Counted from the stretch's first letter, positions 6,480 through 35,674 are shown. The stretch is 64,000 bases of DNA from Planctomycetota bacterium (GCA_024279865.1 JAJRRC010000037.1:1-64000); one strand, 5' to 3'. Made by a program: numbers and translations. The notes: generated by a model not told the origin, from the letters alone.

Positions 6480-7442
6480 ATGAAACACAAAACCCGTGAC
6501 ATTATCGTCGGCTTCACTGCTTTGATGGGCCTTGGAGGCATTGCGTTTTTGCTTTACATCTTTGGCTATGTGCCTCAAATGCTCGAACCAGGTTATCGCA
6601 TCGGCATCGAATTTCCCCATGCCAGTGGGCTTAATGCCAATAGCCGCGTCTTGCTCGACGGCGTGGATGTGGGACGTCTCACCACATTGACCCTGCAACA
6701 GCCTCCCAAGCGAGGCGTATTGTTGGATGCCCAAATCCGAAGGGAATTTCAGATCCCCGCCCAAGCCCGCGTCACGGTCGATGCGAAAATCCTCGGAGGA
6801 AGTCCCGCACTCGCCTTCTATACCGACCATCTTACCAATGAACAGGTCAAAGTCATGCTCCCCGTTGATGGTTCTGCCGTCGTGCAAGGTGAACTGCAAT
6901 CAATGTTTGGTGACCTCAAAGAACAACTCGAAGAACGACTAAACGAGCCTCTGGAAAAATTCAAACAAATTGCAGATGACTTCAGCAAACTGTCACAACA
7001 ATGGACCGTTGTCGGTAAAAACATCAGTGAACTCACCGCGCCACGAACCCTCCAACAAGTTGATGAAGGCAAAGCTCAAGCGAACCTGACCACGCTCCTC
7101 GCACGCACCGATCAACGGATGGCACAGGTCAAAACCATGGTGGCTCAGATGCAAGCAACTTCTGAACAATGGACTGCTGTTGGTAAAGATGTACGCAACG
7201 CTGTCGATCAGATGACCCAGAAGCTCTACGCCACCGCAGACGATATGAGTAAAACCCTTAATGCCGTTCACACCACCGTCGAACAGGCTCGGGTTGGTGA
7301 GGGAACCATTGGGAAATTGCTCAACGATCCTCAGCTCTATCACAATCTCAATGATGCGTCTGAACGCTTGAATCAAATGCTCGATGAAATCAATCTCCTC
7401 GTGCAAAAAATCAAAGCTGAAGGCGTGAATATCAATCTATAA
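6480..7442 (+). CDS. mlaD: MCE-domain phospholipid transport protein (MlaD-like)
   Basis: 320-residue substrate-binding component of an Mla/Mce lipid transporter. One N-terminal membrane helix (about residues 8-30), one MCE domain (about 38-118, with SGLNANSRVLLDGVDVG), then a long helical/coiled-coil C-terminal tail of about 180 residues rich in Gln, Glu and Lys. The tail is longer than in E. coli MlaD and closer to Mce or PqiB-like tunnel-forming helices. It begins two bases after mlaF stops, so the two are co-transcribed. Confidence 0.85.
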   Translation: MKHKTRDIIVGFTALMGLGGIAFLLYIFGYVPQMLEPGYRIGIEFPHASGLNANSRVLLDGVDVGRLTTLTLQQPPKRGVLLDAQIRREFQIPAQARVTVDAKILGGSPALAFYTDHLTNEQVKVMLPVDGSAVVQGELQSMFGDLKEQLEERLNEPLEKFKQIADDFSKLSQQWTVVGKNISELTAPRTLQQVDEGKAQANLTTLLARTDQRMAQVKTMVAQMQATSEQWTAVGKDVRNAVDQMTQKLYATADDMSKTLNAVHTTVEQARVGEGTIGKLLNDPQLYHNLNDASERLNQMLDEINLLVQKIKAEGVNINL

Positions 7443-7448
7443 AGTAGT

Positions 7449-7525
7449 GGTAAGAAAACTTACCTTGCGTGTCGAATCAACAGCAAAGTATTGTGTGCAA
7501 GTTTGTGTTCGTACAGGCACAATAC
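7449..7525. promoter_or_regulatory. Palindromic sites upstream of the uronate isomerase gene
   Basis: The gap after mlaD holds a perfect palindrome GGTAAG-AAAA-CTTACC (7449-7464) and an 8-bp inverted repeat GTATTGTG/CACAATAC (7488-7495 and 7518-7525). Both lie within 105 bases of the next start and could be repressor operators. The first could instead be a weak terminator for mlaD, but it lacks a T tract. Confidence 0.35.
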
Positions 7526-7553
7526 GGGTGTTTTATAAAAAGGGTTTAAGGTT

Positions 7554-8834
7554 ATGGATCGAGCGACACTTCAAACTTGCGTGGCCCAGGCGATCAATGC
7601 TCAGCCGGTAACGGATTTACATACGCATTGTTACACGCCGAAATTTGGTGCGTCGCCGGATTCTGCGGGTTTGTTGTTATGGGGGATTGATGAGTTGGTG
7701 GTGTACCATTATTTGGTGGCGGAGGTGTATCGGGTGGTCCCTGCGACGGTGTTGCCTTACGAATCTTTTTGGGCGATGTCTAAGGTTGAGCAGGCGGATC
7801 ATATTTGGAAGTATTTGTTTGTTGAGCGTACGCCGTTGAGCGAAGCTTGTCGTGGGATTTTGACTTGCCTGATGAAGTTGGGTTTGGACCCCAATGAGAA
7901 AACGTTGACATCTTATCGTCAGTGGTTCAGTGAGCAGTCGCCGGACGCGTACATTGACAAGGTGATGCAGATCGCCAACGTGGATAGCATCACGATGACC
8001 AATGCGGTTTTTGATGATGCTGAGCGGGCGTTGTGGCTCGATGATCCGACGGTGGGGGAGGACCCACGTTTTGAAGCGGTGCTTCGGATTGATCCGTTGT
8101 TGCGTGATTGGCCTGGTGCGACGGCGAAGCTTCGTGCGTGGGGATATGACGTGAACTCTGATTTTTCGGGGAATACGATTGACGAGACCCAGCGTTTTTT
8201 GTGTGAGTGGTTGGATCGTCAGAAGGCCATTTATGTGGCGATGAGTTTGCCGCCTGAGTTTCTGTATCCGGATGTGGCGAATCCTCAGGCCGACCGGTTT
8301 ATTCGGGAGATCATGTTGCCGGTGTTGGCGGATCGAGGATTACCTTGGGCGATGATGATTGGTGCGCGTATGCGGGACGAGGTGAATCCTGCGTTGGGGG
8401 ATGCCGGGGACATGCTAGGCAAGGCAGATGTATTAAGTGTGGTCAATCTTTGCCGTGAGTTTCCGAATAATAAGTTTATGGTGACGATGTTGAGTCGGGA
8501 GAATCAGCATGAGCTTTGTATTGCAGCCCGTAAGTTTGGCAACTTGATGCTCTTTGGTTGTTGGTGGTTTTTGAACAATCCTTCGATTATTGAGGAGATG
8601 ACCCGAGAGCGTTTGGAGCTATTGGGGACCAGTTTTTGCCCGCAGCATTCGGACGCTCGTGTGTTGGATCAGTTGATTTACAAGTGGGACCATAGCCGTA
8701 AGATTATCGCGAAGGTCTTGACGGACAAGTATGCCGACTTGATTGACAGTGGTTACCGCGTGACGGCCGATCATATCAAGCGAGACGCGGCATTGTTGTT
8801 ACGGGATAATTTCCGGGATTTTATTCGTGCGTAA
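7554..8834 (+). CDS. Uronate isomerase-like amidohydrolase
   Basis: 426-residue protein of the glucuronate/uronate isomerase branch of the amidohydrolase superfamily (the divergent group that includes Bacillus BH0493-like proteins). The N-terminal metal motif is DLHTHCYTP (His23, His25). The C-terminal half carries WWFLNNPSIIEEMTRERLELLG and a QHSDARVLDQLIYKW segment comparable to the DSRS region of UxaC. Expected reaction: interconversion of glucuronate/fructuronate or related uronates. The gene is markedly G/T-rich on the coding strand. AAGG at 7546-7549 serves as ribosome site. Candidate operators lie upstream. Substrate uncertain. Confidence 0.7.
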   Translation: MDRATLQTCVAQAINAQPVTDLHTHCYTPKFGASPDSAGLLLWGIDELVVYHYLVAEVYRVVPATVLPYESFWAMSKVEQADHIWKYLFVERTPLSEACRGILTCLMKLGLDPNEKTLTSYRQWFSEQSPDAYIDKVMQIANVDSITMTNAVFDDAERALWLDDPTVGEDPRFEAVLRIDPLLRDWPGATAKLRAWGYDVNSDFSGNTIDETQRFLCEWLDRQKAIYVAMSLPPEFLYPDVANPQADRFIREIMLPVLADRGLPWAMMIGARMRDEVNPALGDAGDMLGKADVLSVVNLCREFPNNKFMVTMLSRENQHELCIAARKFGNLMLFGCWWFLNNPSIIEEMTRERLELLGTSFCPQHSDARVLDQLIYKWDHSRKIIAKVLTDKYADLIDSGYRVTADHIKRDAALLLRDNFRDFIRA

Positions 8835-8909
8835 TGCACAAGGTGTTCAGAGTTTTGTGCTCCACGCATCATAGACTTGCCCAAAAGCAAAAATAATAGA
8901 CCTGCGATC

Positions 8910-8957
8910 ATCACAACGCCGAGTCCTAAGGCCCTCCGGGGCCGCAGGGCCGGATTC
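8910..8957 (+). repeat. Dispersed hairpin repeat (family 2), copy a
   Basis: Begins ATCACAACGCCGAGTCC and ends GGATTC, with an internal GGCCCT...AGGGCC stem. The same conserved flanks with different stems occur at 16999, 21006 (reverse), 33891 (reverse) and, stem-less, at 46833. Intergenic, about 75 bp after the uronate isomerase gene. Confidence 0.65.
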
Positions 8958-8967
8958 CCCCAGACGC

Positions 8968-8984
8968 GCACGCTGTAAGCGTGC
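8968..8984. repeat. GCACGCT hairpin repeat
   Basis: Perfect 7-bp stem GCACGCT/AGCGTGC with a GTA loop, a short palindrome of a kind often scattered in planctomycete genomes. It lies directly after the family-2 repeat. No T tract follows, so a terminator role is unproven. Confidence 0.5.
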
Positions 8985-9057
8985 GGCTTCTATGAAAACG
9001 TTCCACTTAGTCAAAGGCGGTCAGTGTTGAGGTTCAATGCTTTAACACCACCCACCT

Positions 9058-10488
9058 TCAATTTTTCGAAATTAAATTCGCATCCCACTTGGGCGAGTCC
9101 CGTTCACGATTTCGAAAATCAATAATTAATCCCACGACCACAGGCACATAGACAGCAACGGAAACCCAAAGCGGAACACGCCAAACTTGTGGATGGCCCA
9201 GCACTTCATAACCCAGTACCACGGTCAGGCTAAACATCCACAAGCCGATGCTCGGACACCAAGGCAATAGTGCCAGCGCCCACAAGAGATACCACGGATA
9301 GACGGTGCTTGAGCAGAGCAGCGATCCAAACAAATAGGCCATGCACGTGGGCCATAAGCCAACTTTTCGCCACATGCAGATTAAGAGGATTGAAAGTAAC
9401 ACGCCTGCTGCGGCCCATCGTGCCAGTTGAGCAGAGCCTGTGAGGCTCCAGATGATCCCATGCAGTGAACTGTTAAAAGCCCAATTCTCCACAAAAGTTT
9501 GAGACGTTTCCCAAAGACGGCTCAGCCCGCGGGGCATCATTAAAAATGGAAGATACAACGCGATTCCCATGACCGCGGCACTGGTGATTGCAATGGCGAC
9601 CAAACGCAATTCCTTTCGCCCATGCCACGCCAACACCAACGCCAGTGGAAACACAATCGGCTTCACCGCCACCGCCATCGCAAACGCAGCCCCCGCGAGC
9701 ATCCACCGTACTGCACTGGGTTCATCCCGATCCGCCAACAACAAACATGCCAGCAACATCGCAATGCCAATGACATCTTGATGGCCCGACCCTGCCACTT
9801 CACTTAAAACCAATGGATGCCACGCATACAGCACTGCCCACCACGGACTGAGGCCCGTTCGAACAAGTCCCACCAGAATCAATCCCACAATCGCCAGATC
9901 AAACAAACACAAACCCAGCCGAAACATTTTGTCATTGGTGGAGACCATGGTGATGGCTGCAAAGATCCATTGGCTCGTGGGTTGATAGATCGTCACCAAT
10001 TCCGGGTGATTGACCTGTCGGGTAATACGATCTTGCACAGCCAATTCTGCGGGCGCGTGTTGATAAGGACTCGCCCCTGCTGCAAGCGTGCGGCCGTCAT
10101 GGATGTACCGCCAAATATCATCACTGAGCATCGGCGACGTGAAACAAATAATAAACACCCGACAAATCACTGAAATCGTCAAAATCAAAATCACATTTTG
10201 AGACGTGGTCCGCCGATAGGATCGCATCTGCAGCGCCAAAATTAAAAATCCCAAACAAACCCATGTGATCAAAAACGCAGGCCAGTACCATCGCAACAAC
10301 GTGCCATATCCCATTGGCTCAAAGCTCATCTGTGCAAAGGACAGACAAAACAACGTGCAAACAATCGCGCACGCAAAGACCCGCATTGCCAAGGTTGTTT
10401 TGCTCAGCGACCACGCATGGCCGATGTTTTTGTTTTGAGATTGCTTGTGTGCAGGATTGTTTGTTTTAAGCATGGGGACATCTTTCAT
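9058..10488 (-). CDS. GT-C fold membrane glycosyltransferase
   Basis: 476-residue polytopic membrane protein with about 11-12 hydrophobic segments. The first periplasmic loop contains SDDIWRYIHDGR (from residue 122), the acidic motif typical of polyprenol-phosphate-sugar-dependent GT-C transferases (DUF2029/GT87-like mannosyltransferases). It likely moves a hexose from a lipid carrier to a periplasmic glycan or lipid. ATG 10488 is used; ATG 10473 is equally possible, and neither has a good Shine-Dalgarno site. Next to lipB on the same strand with a 48-bp gap. Substrate unknown. Confidence 0.7.
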   Translation of the reverse strand: MKDVPMLKTNNPAHKQSQNKNIGHAWSLSKTTLAMRVFACAIVCTLFCLSFAQMSFEPMGYGTLLRWYWPAFLITWVCLGFLILALQMRSYRRTTSQNVILILTISVICRVFIICFTSPMLSDDIWRYIHDGRTLAAGASPYQHAPAELAVQDRITRQVNHPELVTIYQPTSQWIFAAITMVSTNDKMFRLGLCLFDLAIVGLILVGLVRTGLSPWWAVLYAWHPLVLSEVAGSGHQDVIGIAMLLACLLLADRDEPSAVRWMLAGAAFAMAVAVKPIVFPLALVLAWHGRKELRLVAIAITSAAVMGIALYLPFLMMPRGLSRLWETSQTFVENWAFNSSLHGIIWSLTGSAQLARWAAAGVLLSILLICMWRKVGLWPTCMAYLFGSLLCSSTVYPWYLLWALALLPWCPSIGLWMFSLTVVLGYEVLGHPQVWRVPLWVSVAVYVPVVVGLIIDFRNRERDSPKWDANLISKN

Positions 10489-28627: not shown

Positions 28628-28678
28628 TACGTTTTTTTCGGTTAAAATATCTCGCTGTACTTTGTGGAGGCTGGATCT

Positions 28679-31600
28679 GTGGGTGTTCGCTTGTGGCGAA
28701 CGGTAGTCATGACTAAACCGCAAACATCACAATCCACTTCCTCAGGAAACGAAGCAACTTCCACGACCCAGCGGGTGGCAGTGCTTTTCAAACCTTATTC
28801 AGCAACGCTTGTTGGCGTGGTCCTGTTCATGTTGGTTTTGACCGGCGTGAATATGCTGCGGCCGTTCTTTATCAAACTGCTTTTTGATGAAGTTTTTCCC
28901 GGTCAAGGCAACCCACTGGGCAATCTAGGCTTGCTGATGTTCATCCTCTTGGGGGTGATGATCGTCTATGTGGCTCGCAATATTCTGTTTTACTATTCCA
29001 AGTCGGCAGCGGTCACGGTGGGTGAAAATTTCTGTTTCACCATTCGCAAACGCTTGTTTGAGTATCTACAGCAATTGAACATGCGTTTTTTTCGTCAGAA
29101 CAATGCCGGGGAAGTCTCCAGCCGTCTGATGAATGATAGTTTTGTGATTCAGCAGTTTATTGCAGATGATTTGCCGAAGCTTCTTCAGGCTATTTTTACG
29201 TTTGTGGGTGTGTTGGCGATTATTTATGCGGTGAATTGGCCGTTGGCGTTGGTGAGCACGATTGTGTTGCCGTTGCATTTGTTGACGCATCATTATTTTA
29301 AGAGGCCGATCAAAGAGGCCAGTCGTGAAGCATCGTCACAGCTTTCTTTGGTCCATGGCGATTTGATCGAAAAATTTCTCGGCGCAGAAGTCGTCAAAGG
29401 TTTTGCGGGTGAACAGCGAGAAAGTGAAGCCTTCGGGCGAGCCATTGACCGTTCACGCAAAAGCCAGCTGAAAAGTAAAAGCTATCACATTGTTCAAAAA
29501 GTCATTGCCGACTTGCTCGTGGGTGTGGGGACCGTGGGACTGCTGGGGTTTGGTGCTTATCAAGTCCTCAAACCCGTCGATCCCATGAGAGCGGGAACCT
29601 TTATTATGTTCTTTGCCTACGTGGGGATGCTCTATCCCACCGTGATTGACCTGATGAGTGGCCTCGCCAAATTTACACGAACCACCGCCAGTGTGGACCG
29701 TATTTTTGACATGCTTCAAACCGGGCAGCAGGAACAGCAACTTGACCATGAAGGCCCCAAGCCGCCGATTCGGGGCGAACTGGTCTTTCGCAATGTGGAC
29801 TTTGGCTATGTACAGGGCATCCCTGTTTTGAAAAAAGTTTCATTTACCGTTTCGCCCGGCCAAGTGTGCGCTATCGTCGGTCCCTCCGGGGCAGGCAAAA
29901 GCACCCTTGTCAGCCTCTTGCCACTTTTTAATGAAGCTACGCGAGGCAGCGTTGAGCTAGATGGCCTCGATGTGAAAGACATCGACCTCACTTACCTACG
30001 TCAAAACATCGGCGTCGCTTTTCAAGAATGCTTCCTCTTTAATAGCTCCATTGAAGAAAATTTGCGTTATGCCAACCCCAATGCCACCACCCGGCAAATT
30101 ATGGACGTGGCCAAGCGGACCGGGGCGGATGACTTTATTCAAAAATTGCCTGATGGCTACGAGACCCTCGTCGGAGAAAATGGGGTCAACCTTTCGCGAG
30201 GTGAAAAACAAAGAATTACGTTGATGCGAGCGATGTTGAAAAAACCTAAAATTTTAATTCTCGATGAAGCAACCGCTTCGCTTGATGCAGCTAGTGAATC
30301 GCAGGTCATCCCGGCGATTCTCGAATTTATGCACGGAAAGACTACTTTGATGATCACACATCGTCCACAACTACTTGAACATGCTGACCAAGTGATCCAA
30401 TTGCAGGAAGGACGTGTGGTGTACCAAGGTTCCTCCAAAACGTTTGATCACGAAGCCTTTGCAGGTAACTTGGTGTCACCCTCGCCAGTTCAACGAGATA
30501 CCAAAGAAGGCTCGGACCGTTGGCCCGTTTTGCGTAATTTGGCCATGCTCCTCTCGATGGGTCTTGTGGGAACATCCCTCATCATGACCACGCCCGCCAT
30601 GGCTGCAACTGCTGCTGAAAAGGTGACTGCTAAAAAAACAGCCCCCAAAATATCTCCCAAAGTCACCAAAAAAACGATTCAAAAGTCCACCATTCCCCAT
30701 GCTATTTTTGAACCGATGGTCGGCCTCAATGATCTGCAAGTGGCTGAACTGCTTGATGTCATTGCTGCGAAGCTCAAAGCCCAAGGCTATTCCAATCGCA
30801 ACCAAGCAGACCATCGCAAACAAATGCCACAACTCGAGGACTATCGCAATGTGCAGCTATTATCCAAAACCCAAGGGGCTGCCGTCCACTTGGTTCAACT
30901 GGGATTGAAAACCTTTCGAAGCCAACCCGTGCATCTATGGATCGCTGGCACCATCGTGCAAGGGAACACCCAAAAACCGATGGACCTCGAACCCCTCAAG
31001 GCCAGTCTGGCTCAAGCCCGCAAGTCGCTCCAGACCCATCAAGAAACACTCAAAGTCGGTGATCTCGCGATTGAAACCTTACGCCTAAGCTACATCGAAC
31101 CAGACCGCTGCTTGGCAGTGTTGAAAACCTTGGGCTATCAGGTCATTGAATACAAAGCCGGTGCCAAAGGCCCCGGCCGTCACCAGATGATCAACCCGGA
31201 CAAAAAAGTTGATCCTAAAAATCTCCCCGTGGTCGTTGCCGTACCAGGAACCGATGCGACCCAACTCGTCGGCGGCATCAAAGTCGCCAAAGGCGCTTTC
31301 GGGCTGACCATGACGCCAAGCATTCCTTCACCCTTGCCCGATCACACAGCCGCCGCACCCTTGATGGAACTGCTCATCTTGCATGACCCGGCGAGACCTC
31401 AACAGCACGCCAAATTACTGGACTTGATCCATCACACCATTGACGTGCCAGCTCGGCAAATTCTGGTGGAAGCCATGGTGCTGGAAATTTCTAAAAGTGC
31501 CCTAGACCAATTGGGCGTTCAATGGGAATTGCAAACCGCCAAGGCCAATTTGACAAGTCTTCAAATTGGGCGTTTGCCTGACTTGGCTGCGGGCGAAACG

Positions 31601-33172
31601 CCTGCGATGGATATTGGATTGGGCAATATCTTCGGCGAATTCAAAATACAACTGCAAGCGTTGGTTTCTGCGGGCAAAGCAAAAATTCTCTCAAGGCCAA
31701 GCGTATTAACGCTTGATAACCGTCAAGCATCCATTCGCGTGGGCGAGGAAATTCCCGTGGCGACCAGTACCGCGGGTGCGATTACAGGCGACAAAATCAG
31801 CTTTAAGTTTCAATACATCCCCATTGGCATTTTACTCAACGTCAGGCCACGGGTCAGCCGCAACGGCGATTATGTCAGTATGCAAATTGATGGGATTGTT
31901 TCCGCCAAAGTACCCGGCGAAGACTTGGAACTGCGTGATACCAAAACCAATGAGATCCTCGCAAGCGCGCCGCAGATTAGTACCCGTCGCGTGCAAACGT
32001 ATAGTCGCGTCGCCAACAACACGCCGTTTATTATTGGTGGGTTGATTGCAGAGGATGATGTGGATTTAGAGAAAAAAGTTACGTTGCTAGGCGATATTCC
32101 CTTGATCGGAAAACTTTTTACTTCCTCAGCCAAGGCCAAGCTCAAACGTGAGGTGATTATTGTGATTACGCCTTATGTGTTGCCGACCAATCAGCTTGCC
32201 GGCCGGAATATGCCCAAGGATGAAGATTCGTTTGATAGCTTTGGCAACGAACTGTTTCGTGATGCGTATCGTATTCGAGCTGCGGATGTTTTTGATTTAA
32301 CTTTTTTGCGTGAACATCTGGGCTTGCAACGTCTCACCGATCTAACCAATCAAGTCGTGTCCCGCAATGCCTCCTTGGCTCAAACCTATCCGTTTGATCG
32401 GTTCGTGGAGAATCGCATCCCAGGCGAACGGATTTTGGTCTATCGTCAAATGTATGGCGTGATTAAACGCCACCACCTTGACGAGCAAATCCGCTTACGC
32501 AAATTGATTTTCTTTGAACCTCAAAAAGAGACGGAAAACAAAGGGGCCGCGACTGGGTTTGAAGTGCGGTTCCTCTTGGCATCATTGGAAAAACAGTTGG
32601 GTTTGGGGGTGGCTTCCTCGACAGACGAGCCAGATTTAGAGCGTTTGTTTGGCGCGTTAAAAGGCAAGGCCGTGGCTTTAACCTGGACCCGTCAGCGGTA
32701 TACGCAAAAGAGTCGAGACCTGCTCGCGCAGCCTGTGCCGCAGGTGAGTATTGTCGATTGTGCGGATCGCCAAGCATGGTCCAATGAACTTTGGACACGC
32801 AATCAGATCGATAAAAATGGCAATCAGCGTTATACCATTTTGCTTCACAGTGCCAAGGATTTGGATCGGCTCAAACGGGCGATTATTCTCAAGCAGACGG
32901 TGGCGATGAATGCGCGAGAAAACGCGATTACATTGGCGAACTTTGCCGTGGGCCGTCAGTTGTTGATGCCGACGGTGAAGCGTGACAAAGTTTATTTGGT
33001 GGACGATCAGGTTGCCAAATACTTTTTCTATACCGAGCTATACTATCCGGCTGTGCGAGAAGAATTGCAGCGTGATGCGGAGGCTTTGAAAAACATGCTC
33101 AAGGCCAGTAGCATGAGGCGATTGCTCGATGATCCCAATGGGGCCGACCGGCCGGCTCAATGGAAGCCTTGA
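28679..33172 (+). CDS. ABC exporter-secretin fusion protein
   Basis: One uninterrupted frame of about 1497 codons. The first ~590 residues are an MsbA-like ABC exporter half-transporter: six membrane helices (DNA about 28800-29650), Walker A GPSGAGKS (29880-29903), signature written LSRGE (30190-30204), Walker B ILILDEAT. Then comes a signal-peptide-like hydrophobic segment ending TTPAMAATAAEK (DNA about 30520-30615), an N-domain region, and a secretin core: LVSAGKAKILSRPSVLTLDNRQASIRVGEEIPV (31660-31760), GGLIAEDD and LLGDIPLIGKLF, ending ITPYVLPTN (about 32190). A further ~325 residues are not recognised. GTG 28679 has GGAGG; ATG 28709 is an alternative. An internal GTG at 30473 with GCAGG seven bases upstream could yield a separate 899-residue secretin. 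Genuine fusion versus lost stop codon cannot be decided here. Confidence 0.85.
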   Translation: MGVRLWRTVVMTKPQTSQSTSSGNEATSTTQRVAVLFKPYSATLVGVVLFMLVLTGVNMLRPFFIKLLFDEVFPGQGNPLGNLGLLMFILLGVMIVYVARNILFYYSKSAAVTVGENFCFTIRKRLFEYLQQLNMRFFRQNNAGEVSSRLMNDSFVIQQFIADDLPKLLQAIFTFVGVLAIIYAVNWPLALVSTIVLPLHLLTHHYFKRPIKEASREASSQLSLVHGDLIEKFLGAEVVKGFAGEQRESEAFGRAIDRSRKSQLKSKSYHIVQKVIADLLVGVGTVGLLGFGAYQVLKPVDPMRAGTFIMFFAYVGMLYPTVIDLMSGLAKFTRTTASVDRIFDMLQTGQQEQQLDHEGPKPPIRGELVFRNVDFGYVQGIPVLKKVSFTVSPGQVCAIVGPSGAGKSTLVSLLPLFNEATRGSVELDGLDVKDIDLTYLRQNIGVAFQECFLFNSSIEENLRYANPNATTRQIMDVAKRTGADDFIQKLPDGYETLVGENGVNLSRGEKQRITLMRAMLKKPKILILDEATASLDAASESQVIPAILEFMHGKTTLMITHRPQLLEHADQVIQLQEGRVVYQGSSKTFDHEAFAGNLVSPSPVQRDTKEGSDRWPVLRNLAMLLSMGLVGTSLIMTTPAMAATAAEKVTAKKTAPKISPKVTKKTIQKSTIPHAIFEPMVGLNDLQVAELLDVIAAKLKAQGYSNRNQADHRKQMPQLEDYRNVQLLSKTQGAAVHLVQLGLKTFRSQPVHLWIAGTIVQGNTQKPMDLEPLKASLAQARKSLQTHQETLKVGDLAIETLRLSYIEPDRCLAVLKTLGYQVIEYKAGAKGPGRHQMINPDKKVDPKNLPVVVAVPGTDATQLVGGIKVAKGAFGLTMTPSIPSPLPDHTAAAPLMELLILHDPARPQQHAKLLDLIHHTIDVPARQILVEAMVLEISKSALDQLGVQWELQTAKANLTSLQIGRLPDLAAGETPAMDIGLGNIFGEFKIQLQALVSAGKAKILSRPSVLTLDNRQASIRVGEEIPVATSTAGAITGDKISFKFQYIPIGILLNVRPRVSRNGDYVSMQIDGIVSAKVPGEDLELRDTKTNEILASAPQISTRRVQTYSRVANNTPFIIGGLIAEDDVDLEKKVTLLGDIPLIGKLFTSSAKAKLKREVIIVITPYVLPTNQLAGRNMPKDEDSFDSFGNELFRDAYRIRAADVFDLTFLREHLGLQRLTDLTNQVVSRNASLAQTYPFDRFVENRIPGERILVYRQMYGVIKRHHLDEQIRLRKLIFFEPQKETENKGAATGFEVRFLLASLEKQLGLGVASSTDEPDLERLFGALKGKAVALTWTRQRYTQKSRDLLAQPVPQVSIVDCADRQAWSNELWTRNQIDKNGNQRYTILLHSAKDLDRLKRAIILKQTVAMNARENAITLANFAVGRQLLMPTVKRDKVYLVDDQVAKYFFYTELYYPAVREELQRDAEALKNMLKASSMRRLLDDPNGADRPAQWKP

Positions 33173-33198
33173 TTTTTAATTGGTACGAAAGAGATTTG

Positions 33199-33858
33199 AT
33201 GCAGTATGACATCCATCAAGTGTTGACGAATCCTGATTTTTCGCAGCCTTGGGATAGCCCCGCTTGGGACAAGGCTGCGGTGGTGCAGATCGATCAATTT
33301 CGCCCTGAAAGTGGCGAGCATCATCCAACCACCCACGCCAAAGTTCTCTACGATGACAAAGGACTTTATGTTTACTTTCAAGTGCAGGACCAATTTGTTC
33401 ATAGCACGGTGACGGATTTGCAAGGGTCGGTTTGCAAGGATAGCTGTGTTGAATTTTTTGTGGAACCCATCGCGGGCAAAAACTATTTTAACTTTGAAAT
33501 TAACTGTGGTGGCACCATGTTGCTTTACTACATTGAAGATATACAAATAACCCCCAAACGTTACAAAGAAGTTTCTGCTGAAGATTGTCAGATGGTTGAA
33601 ATCCATGCGATGATGCCCAAGGTGGTCGATCCGGAAATCGTTGAGCCGACGACTTGGACGATGGGATTTTTTATTCCGTTTGCACTGTTTGAAAAGTATC
33701 TGGGGCAGACCGTCGAGCCGGGACAGTGGCGTGGCAACTTTTATAAATGTGGCAGTCTCAAACCCCATTGGGCCAGTTGGGCTCCGATGGCCGGCAAGCA
33801 ACTACAGTTTCATCAACCCCAGTTGTTTGGCTCTTTGCGATTTGTCCCAGCTCCGTAG
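33199..33858 (+). CDS. CBM9-like carbohydrate-binding domain protein
   Basis: 219 residues resembling the family 9 carbohydrate-binding-like fold seen in many planctomycete proteins (WDKAAVVQIDQF, AKVLYDDKGLYVYFQVQD, DSCVEFFVEPI, YFNFEINCGGTMLLYYIED). No signal peptide is seen, so it may be cytoplasmic or moonlighting. ATG 33199 is chosen for AAAGAGA just upstream; ATG 33160, overlapping the secretin end by 13 bp, is also possible. Ligand unknown. Confidence 0.7.
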   Translation: MQYDIHQVLTNPDFSQPWDSPAWDKAAVVQIDQFRPESGEHHPTTHAKVLYDDKGLYVYFQVQDQFVHSTVTDLQGSVCKDSCVEFFVEPIAGKNYFNFEINCGGTMLLYYIEDIQITPKRYKEVSAEDCQMVEIHAMMPKVVDPEIVEPTTWTMGFFIPFALFEKYLGQTVEPGQWRGNFYKCGSLKPHWASWAPMAGKQLQFHQPQLFGSLRFVPAP

Positions 33859-34837: not shown

Positions 34838-35674
34838 TCAGTCGATTTCCACGGTGGCCTGCCAACCATTGCCGAGCATGACCGCGGCATGTTTGTCTTG
34901 GAAGGACCTAAAAAGATTGTCGTCGATCTGTCTAAAAGATCCGTATCTGGTGTCCAGCTTATTGTGCGTGGCTTCAAAAGAGACATGGTTGTCGTTAAAC
35001 CCAACGCTGCCACGCCATTCATTGGTGCCTAAAGTGGGGTTGGTGTGGACCGATTTAATCTTGAAGGCACCCTCGCCAATCGTAGCGCCCAGATTGTTTC
35101 CAGCAACCGTCCCATCATTATCTTTTGCACGATCAGAGATCACGACAGCTTCGCTGTTGGAAGTATCACGCCATTCATTGGGTCGCTGAAAGCTATTGGT
35201 TCCGGCATTTTTCATTTTCAGCAACGCATAGGAGAAATTAGCCGAAGAGATCGTGCCCGTGGTCCAAGGGTCCTTGGTTTCTGCAGGGCTGACTGCATAA
35301 GCACCGGTAAAGTAGTTGTCGTCGAGCAACTCTTGGTAACGAGCTTCGACCATGCAGCCACTGCCGATACCAACAGCAGGGTCGGCATATCCCGCGACGG
35401 TGACCAACTGCCCTGTGGTGCTACGGCCGGGATAGTAGGTGTTGTTGCCTTGGGAGAACAGAACCAAGCCGGTCTGGATGCCTCGAACCTGTGTGGAGTT
35501 CTGCATTTGACGGGCGGTCCGACGAGCTGCTCCCAACGCGGGCAACAGGATTCCGATCAACAAGGCGATGATCGAAATCACGACTAAAAGCTCAATTAGA
35601 GTAAACGCAAAAGATTGTTTTTGTGCAGAGCAACGTGTTGTATGGCTGCCTGTCTGTTTTGAAAAAATGACCAT
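34838..35674 (-). CDS. Type II secretion-like pseudopilin
   Basis: 278 residues. Basic leader of about 22 residues, then the prepilin peptidase site and helix FAFTLIELLVVISIIALLIGILLPALGAARRTARQ with Glu5 of the mature helix. The C-terminal globular domain ends with an (N)DNHVSFEATH segment as in planctomycete H-X9-DG proteins. It is probably processed by a prepilin peptidase and assembled in a type II secretion-like pseudopilus or kept as a surface protein. AAAGGA upstream of ATG 35674. Located 1.7 kb from the secretin fusion, which may be functional context. Confidence 0.88.
   Translation of the reverse strand: MVIFSKQTGSHTTRCSAQKQSFAFTLIELLVVISIIALLIGILLPALGAARRTARQMQNSTQVRGIQTGLVLFSQGNNTYYPGRSTTGQLVTVAGYADPAVGIGSGCMVEARYQELLDDNYFTGAYAVSPAETKDPWTTGTISSANFSYALLKMKNAGTNSFQRPNEWRDTSNSEAVVISDRAKDNDGTVAGNNLGATIGEGAFKIKSVHTNPTLGTNEWRGSVGFNDNHVSFEATHNKLDTRYGSFRQIDDNLFRSFQDKHAAVMLGNGWQATVEID

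Follow-up and report, generated by a model that had tools for sequence, protein, structure and literature searches.

In the textbook systems a TolC-type channel serves the ABC exporter and a pilus-type motor serves the secretin, and we know of no secretion system that pairs an ABC exporter with a secretin. Lipidated secretins are known, HxcQ being such a liposecretin, and in Bradyrhizobium the single gene of FbcH encodes a cytochrome b/c1 polyprotein which is cut by signal peptidase at an internal signal peptide. Type I secretion has a three-part definition (PMC8277102). In the titles and abstracts of open-licence PMC papers, nothing relevant was found on ABC-secretin fusions, on secretins of the Phycisphaerae or on internal signals in polyproteins.

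The DNA analysed here, which we call the window, is a stretch of 64,000 nucleotides from a Planctomycetota bacterium, and in it an uninterrupted frame of 1502 codons encodes, as one protein, an ABC exporter and a secretin joined by a linker that contains a hydrophobic segment, and after these a C-terminal domain of 317 amino acids. Its parts are as follows:

28664-33172, plus strand: whole fused gene, with the GTG start as listed and ATG 28709 as a plausible other start; the frame is shared with 27 relatives.
28817-29623, plus strand: transmembrane domain (TMD) of the ABC exporter (PF00664, ABC_membrane, residues 52-320, E 2e-37), with six hydrophobic segments by hydropathy.
29828-30277, plus strand: nucleotide-binding domain (NBD) of the ABC exporter (PF00005, ABC_tran, residues 389-538, E 3.6e-32), with Walker A GPSGAGKS, signature LSRGEKQR and Walker B LDEATASLD all intact.
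30518-30604, plus strand: putative internal signal peptide, read from the sequence as RWPVLRN / LAMLLSMGLVGTSLI / MTTPAMA, with an AxA-type site.
30605-30703, plus strand: low-complexity linker, the N-terminus of the predicted mature secretin (ATAAEKVTAKKTAPK...), read from the sequence and under coding constraint in close fused pairs.
30704-31054, plus strand: N-terminal domain of the secretin half (AF2 model residues 1-117, pLDDT 81-92), BamC-like in arrangement by a weak structural match only (Z 5.8-6.5).
31058-31441, plus strand: secretin N-domain region, of ring-building type and before the barrel (AF2 residues 119-246), aligned with the secretin N-domain regions of the structural matches.
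31658-32182, plus strand: secretin core with LLGDIPLIGKLF (PF00263, Secretin, residues 999-1173, E 7.9e-40); GspD structures match at Foldseek E 1e-16 and VIA Z about 12.
32219-33169, plus strand: conserved C-terminal domain of 317 amino acids that marks this secretin family (AF2 pLDDT 91; no PDB fold match).

The initial annotation had described an exporter and a secretin in one frame without a stop codon, and this is confirmed by the Pfam domains of the single product and by the same architecture in 27 further genomes; the position from which it counted, 28679, is a GTG internal to the longer frame from 28664. The signal-peptide-like junction that it had pointed out, a hydrophobic core followed by TTPAMA, is present at about 30539-30604 (LAMLLSMGLVGTSLIMTTPAMA, then ATAAE), and the cut by signal peptidase I is predicted between 30604 and 30605 (AMA|AT). 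Downstream, a CBM9-type gene (33160-33858), which is not kept beside the fused gene in relatives, may begin inside the last codons of the latter, with an overlap of 13 bases if its start is ATG 33160, and a prepilin-like protein with an N-terminal methylation motif (PF07963) is encoded on the minus strand at 34838-35674.

A search with the secretin half covered 121 genomes from the family and order of the window, and about 40 of them hold a relative at 40-65% identity, mostly in frames of 1450-1730 codons. When the loci were read one by one, leaving fragments at contig ends that lack the exporter side out of the whole-protein count, exporter and secretin were found in one frame in 28 genomes, belonging to 17 genera (the window included in both counts) and to six families of the order (f1 to f6); the joined architecture is real and conserved. 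The linkers at the junctions of close fused pairs differ by gaps of whole codons and have a dN/dS of about 0.28-0.35, therefore the junction is translated and under selection, less tightly than the flanking domains. At one locus (L075, G066:C1:2478289-2483002) the exporter frame is broken between the TMD and the NBD, with the NBD joined to the secretin in 1310 codons, by error or as a real split.

In the AF2 model, the secretin half consists of an N-terminal domain, the secretin N-domain region, the barrel and the C-terminal domain (mean pLDDT 75.8, pTM 0.55), and its nearest solved structures, by Foldseek and VIA, are GspD and then other secretins. The C-terminal 317 residues, which fold confidently in the model, have no sequence match in Pfam, PHROG or PDB, and no match to a solved fold at E <= 0.001, the best VIA Z of 2.9 being no proof of a new fold. 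In the sampled genomes this domain occurs only in the secretins of the family or in fragments of them, and it may be the periplasmic link to the exporter that is otherwise missing. A second, partial copy of it (a 104-codon frame, G072:C20:319917-320177) lies near the fused gene of that genome.

Beyond the computed fusion, conservation, junction motifs, linkage and co-evolution, we infer cleavage, ring assembly, physical coupling and export, in a route whose steps could have been: (i) the N-terminal ABC exporter would enter the inner membrane and leave its ATPase domain on the cytosolic side; (ii) the hydrophobic segment that follows would act as an internal signal peptide and carry the remainder into the periplasm; (iii) signal peptidase I, in the clade of the window, would cut at the junction and free the secretin, while in the sister clade the lipoprotein signal peptidase II would free a lipid-anchored one; (iv) the freed secretin would assemble as an outer-membrane ring; (v) and finally, exporter and secretin would act jointly as a two-component export route across the envelope, in which the N-terminal and C-terminal domains of the secretin would likely bridge the periplasm and replace a separate adaptor. 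From the sequence comparisons, we consider it probable, with about two chances in three, that the fused product is a polyprotein from which signal peptidase I or II releases an inner-membrane exporter and a cooperating outer-membrane secretin. Against this proposal counts the synthesis of both parts at 1:1, since the exporter would be a dimer but the ring would need 12-15 subunits. The lineages that have the secretin but no close copy of this exporter, the lack of a conserved third or cargo gene and the atypical lipobox of f5 and G072, all described below, also count against it.

The main alternative is that the polyprotein is indeed cut but that the functions of its products are unrelated, or linked by co-regulation at most (such as lipid flipping and an independent pore), the fusion just setting the ratio of synthesis. 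Unfused adjacent pairs occur with the exporter first in g9, in part of f2 and in f10, and with the secretin first in G068 and in f113, which is of another class, therefore the link between exporter and secretin is wider than the fusion; in f123 the exporter is followed by the secretin about 1 kb away by match ends. The distance matrices of the two halves correlate with r 0.93 (Mantel p 0.001, 39 genomes), which shows co-inheritance rather than contact, shared genome ancestry adding to the correlation. The pair is patchily distributed, the secretin being present in 31 of 397 genomes drawn evenly from the class and in 11 of 392 drawn from the phylum, and in several lineages (f20 and f23, G020 and G039) the secretin is kept without a close copy of this exporter, so that the pairing is not obligatory everywhere. 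In f20 and f23 the secretin is accompanied by an MscS-type channel and by a binding-protein (NMT1_3)/ion-channel/RCK protein (L087:5853-6998 and 7002-9212, with the same clusters in L085 and L086), which in f20 follow it; it looks as though one inner-membrane partner had been exchanged for another. Among the genes next to the pair, none besides exporter and secretin recurs widely, and no conserved third or cargo gene was found, therefore no cargo can be named. The secretins without this exporter, the channel neighbors in f20 and the lack of a cargo gene at the locus speak for unrelated jobs; however, a pairing that extends across two classes, in both gene orders and in fusions, with halves that diverge together, speaks against them, and we regard this alternative as unlikely, at roughly one chance in six.

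The tree of the secretin contains an AxA clade and a lipoprotein-type clade, each with fused and unfused members. Under parsimony with equal costs, five changes are required both by one fusion with later splits and by several fusions, and a single fusion is favored only if fusion is rarer than fission.

Within this family, the motifs at the junction bear on whether the proposed cut occurs. The calls of cleavage motifs are based on sequence patterns, and by these all 17 fused proteins in the window's clade (families f1 and f6) have an AxA-type signal peptidase I motif immediately behind the hydrophobic segment, with examples such as AFA|QN, ALA|QD, AWA|DD and AHA|QD. In the sister clade (f2 to f5), a cysteine comes right after the hydrophobic segment in all 11 fused proteins, followed by a sequence rich in Ser/Thr; the lipobox around it is classical in only some of them (LGGC, FFGC, LGAC) and atypical in others, at -3 in f5 and G072 (GCVSES preceded by NP/YP; TTSC), and the strict lipobox pattern matches 7 of the 28 fused proteins, two of these inside the core and not at the conserved cysteine. 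As a control, among 153 TMD helices of the exporter domains, the AxA type was found in 11 and the lipobox in one. The secretins of the separate-gene relatives carry the same kinds of signal (AxA type or lipobox) at their N-terminus. A cleavage motif is thus conserved across the fused relatives, and its distribution is what a functional internal signal peptide should show; LspA is also present, which counts in favor of a cut polyprotein. That one exporter-secretin polypeptide would carry an internal signal that signal peptidase could cut, as first suggested from the sequence of the window, is therefore strongly supported by comparison, through the AxA site or cysteine that is kept and the same signal in the unfused relatives.

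The hydrophobic segment alone could also be a membrane anchor, in which case the fusion would remain uncut and a seventh transmembrane helix would tether the secretin to the exporter; nor is the stoichiometry explained by a 1:1 cut product either. Nevertheless, an AxA site or a cysteine is kept at the end of the segment in every fused junction, the secretin of the split relatives is a separate chain that bears its own signal, and a tethered barrel would have to reach the outer membrane via a linker, the junctions varying from about 70 to 265 residues. An uncut fusion is, in consequence, improbable, and we would give it about one chance in ten.

A free secretin might also arise by internal initiation of translation, with the fused product as a minor one, and the initial annotation had proposed for this the GTG at 30473 with a GCAGG site. 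The GTG exists, but it has just a weak AGGT-like site and lacks a counterpart in relatives. No conserved internal start was found at the junction in the other fused genera, save for an in-frame Met in genus g69, and within 35 codons upstream of the hydrophobic segment G047, G022 and G072 have no ATG, GTG or TTG; thus in these three a secretin that retains its signal could be freed by processing alone. Since a start codon is lacking in some fused genes at the point from which a free secretin would be translated, internal initiation cannot be the general route, and the GTG start is ruled out as such. In g69 a conserved in-frame MKHP before the lipoprotein-like signal resembles a normal start, but no ribosome-binding site precedes its ATG, whereas the split relatives have a start codon for the secretin and, in most of them, an obvious ribosome-binding site; in G045, G041, G035 and G117 this start, with a ribosome-binding-like site (for example CGGAG or GGAAGAGG), is at the stop of the exporter. 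Judging from these junctions, g69 might use both processing and an internal start, and the fused genes most likely depend on proteolysis to free the secretin; free secretin made chiefly by internal initiation is a quite improbable alternative, at some one chance in seventeen. Finally, the window comes from an assembly of 122 contigs, but a missing stop or frameshift through sequencing or assembly error is practically excluded, because 27 other genomes have the joined frame too, several of them assembled as a single contig and one of them being the complete chromosome CP087563.1.

If the reading as a cut and cooperating pair is true, it would represent a new way to build a two-membrane exporter, and the fused, split, reversed and exporter-free relatives form a natural set that makes its manufacture and use directly testable. 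An internal lipoprotein signal in a fused polyprotein would extend what is known of bacterial lipoprotein processing, the split by signal peptidase II being the most unusual part. On the comparisons made here, it is slightly better than an even chance that this is a new class of envelope-spanning export machine, that is, a dedicated pair of ABC exporter and secretin without a separate adaptor, produced in the Phycisphaerales as a polyprotein that the host signal peptidase I or II would split, so that synthesis and delivery would be locked together.

As in type I secretion and tripartite ABC efflux of the HlyB-HlyD-TolC kind, an outer-membrane channel goes together with an ATP-driven exporter, which is of the ABC superfamily in both cases and here has its TMD and NBD intact; in contrast, the outer-membrane part of the fused gene is a secretin (PF00263) instead of a TolC-type factor, and exporter and channel are one chain. 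Membership of type I secretion fails because the linked channel is no TolC and no periplasmic adaptor (membrane fusion protein) recurs at the locus. The exporter shares domain order and motifs with MsbA, Sav1866 and TM287-288 (TM288, Sav1866 and MsbA are among its PDB matches), but it is tied to a secretin, and it scores below the MsbA equivalogs (TIGR02203, 354 of 602 bits; NF008381, 292 of 867).

With the type II secretin GspD, its closest match, the secretin half shares the core and the N-domain region, but it has its own C-terminal domain of 317 amino acids and the fusion to an exporter, at a locus without GspE or a pseudopilin operon. Membership of type II secretion fails because the score for the GspD equivalog (TIGR02517) is 178 bits against a cut-off of 351 and GspE is absent from the locus, the T2SSE-family matches over cut-off being all on other contigs, one of them (C120) with another secretin. 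The genome of the window has three other secretins, one on a contig with a T2SS/T4P-type ATPase; the fused one is therefore a distinct fourth, and that it is the only T2SS or pilus secretin of the organism is ruled out. The lipoprotein-type signal in part of the fused family resembles that of HxcQ-type secretins. Like FbcH, finally, the fused gene is one bacterial gene for two envelope proteins, but FbcH gives an electron-transfer complex of one membrane, whereas the ABC-secretin product would concern two membranes, with a lipoprotein-type signal in part of its family.
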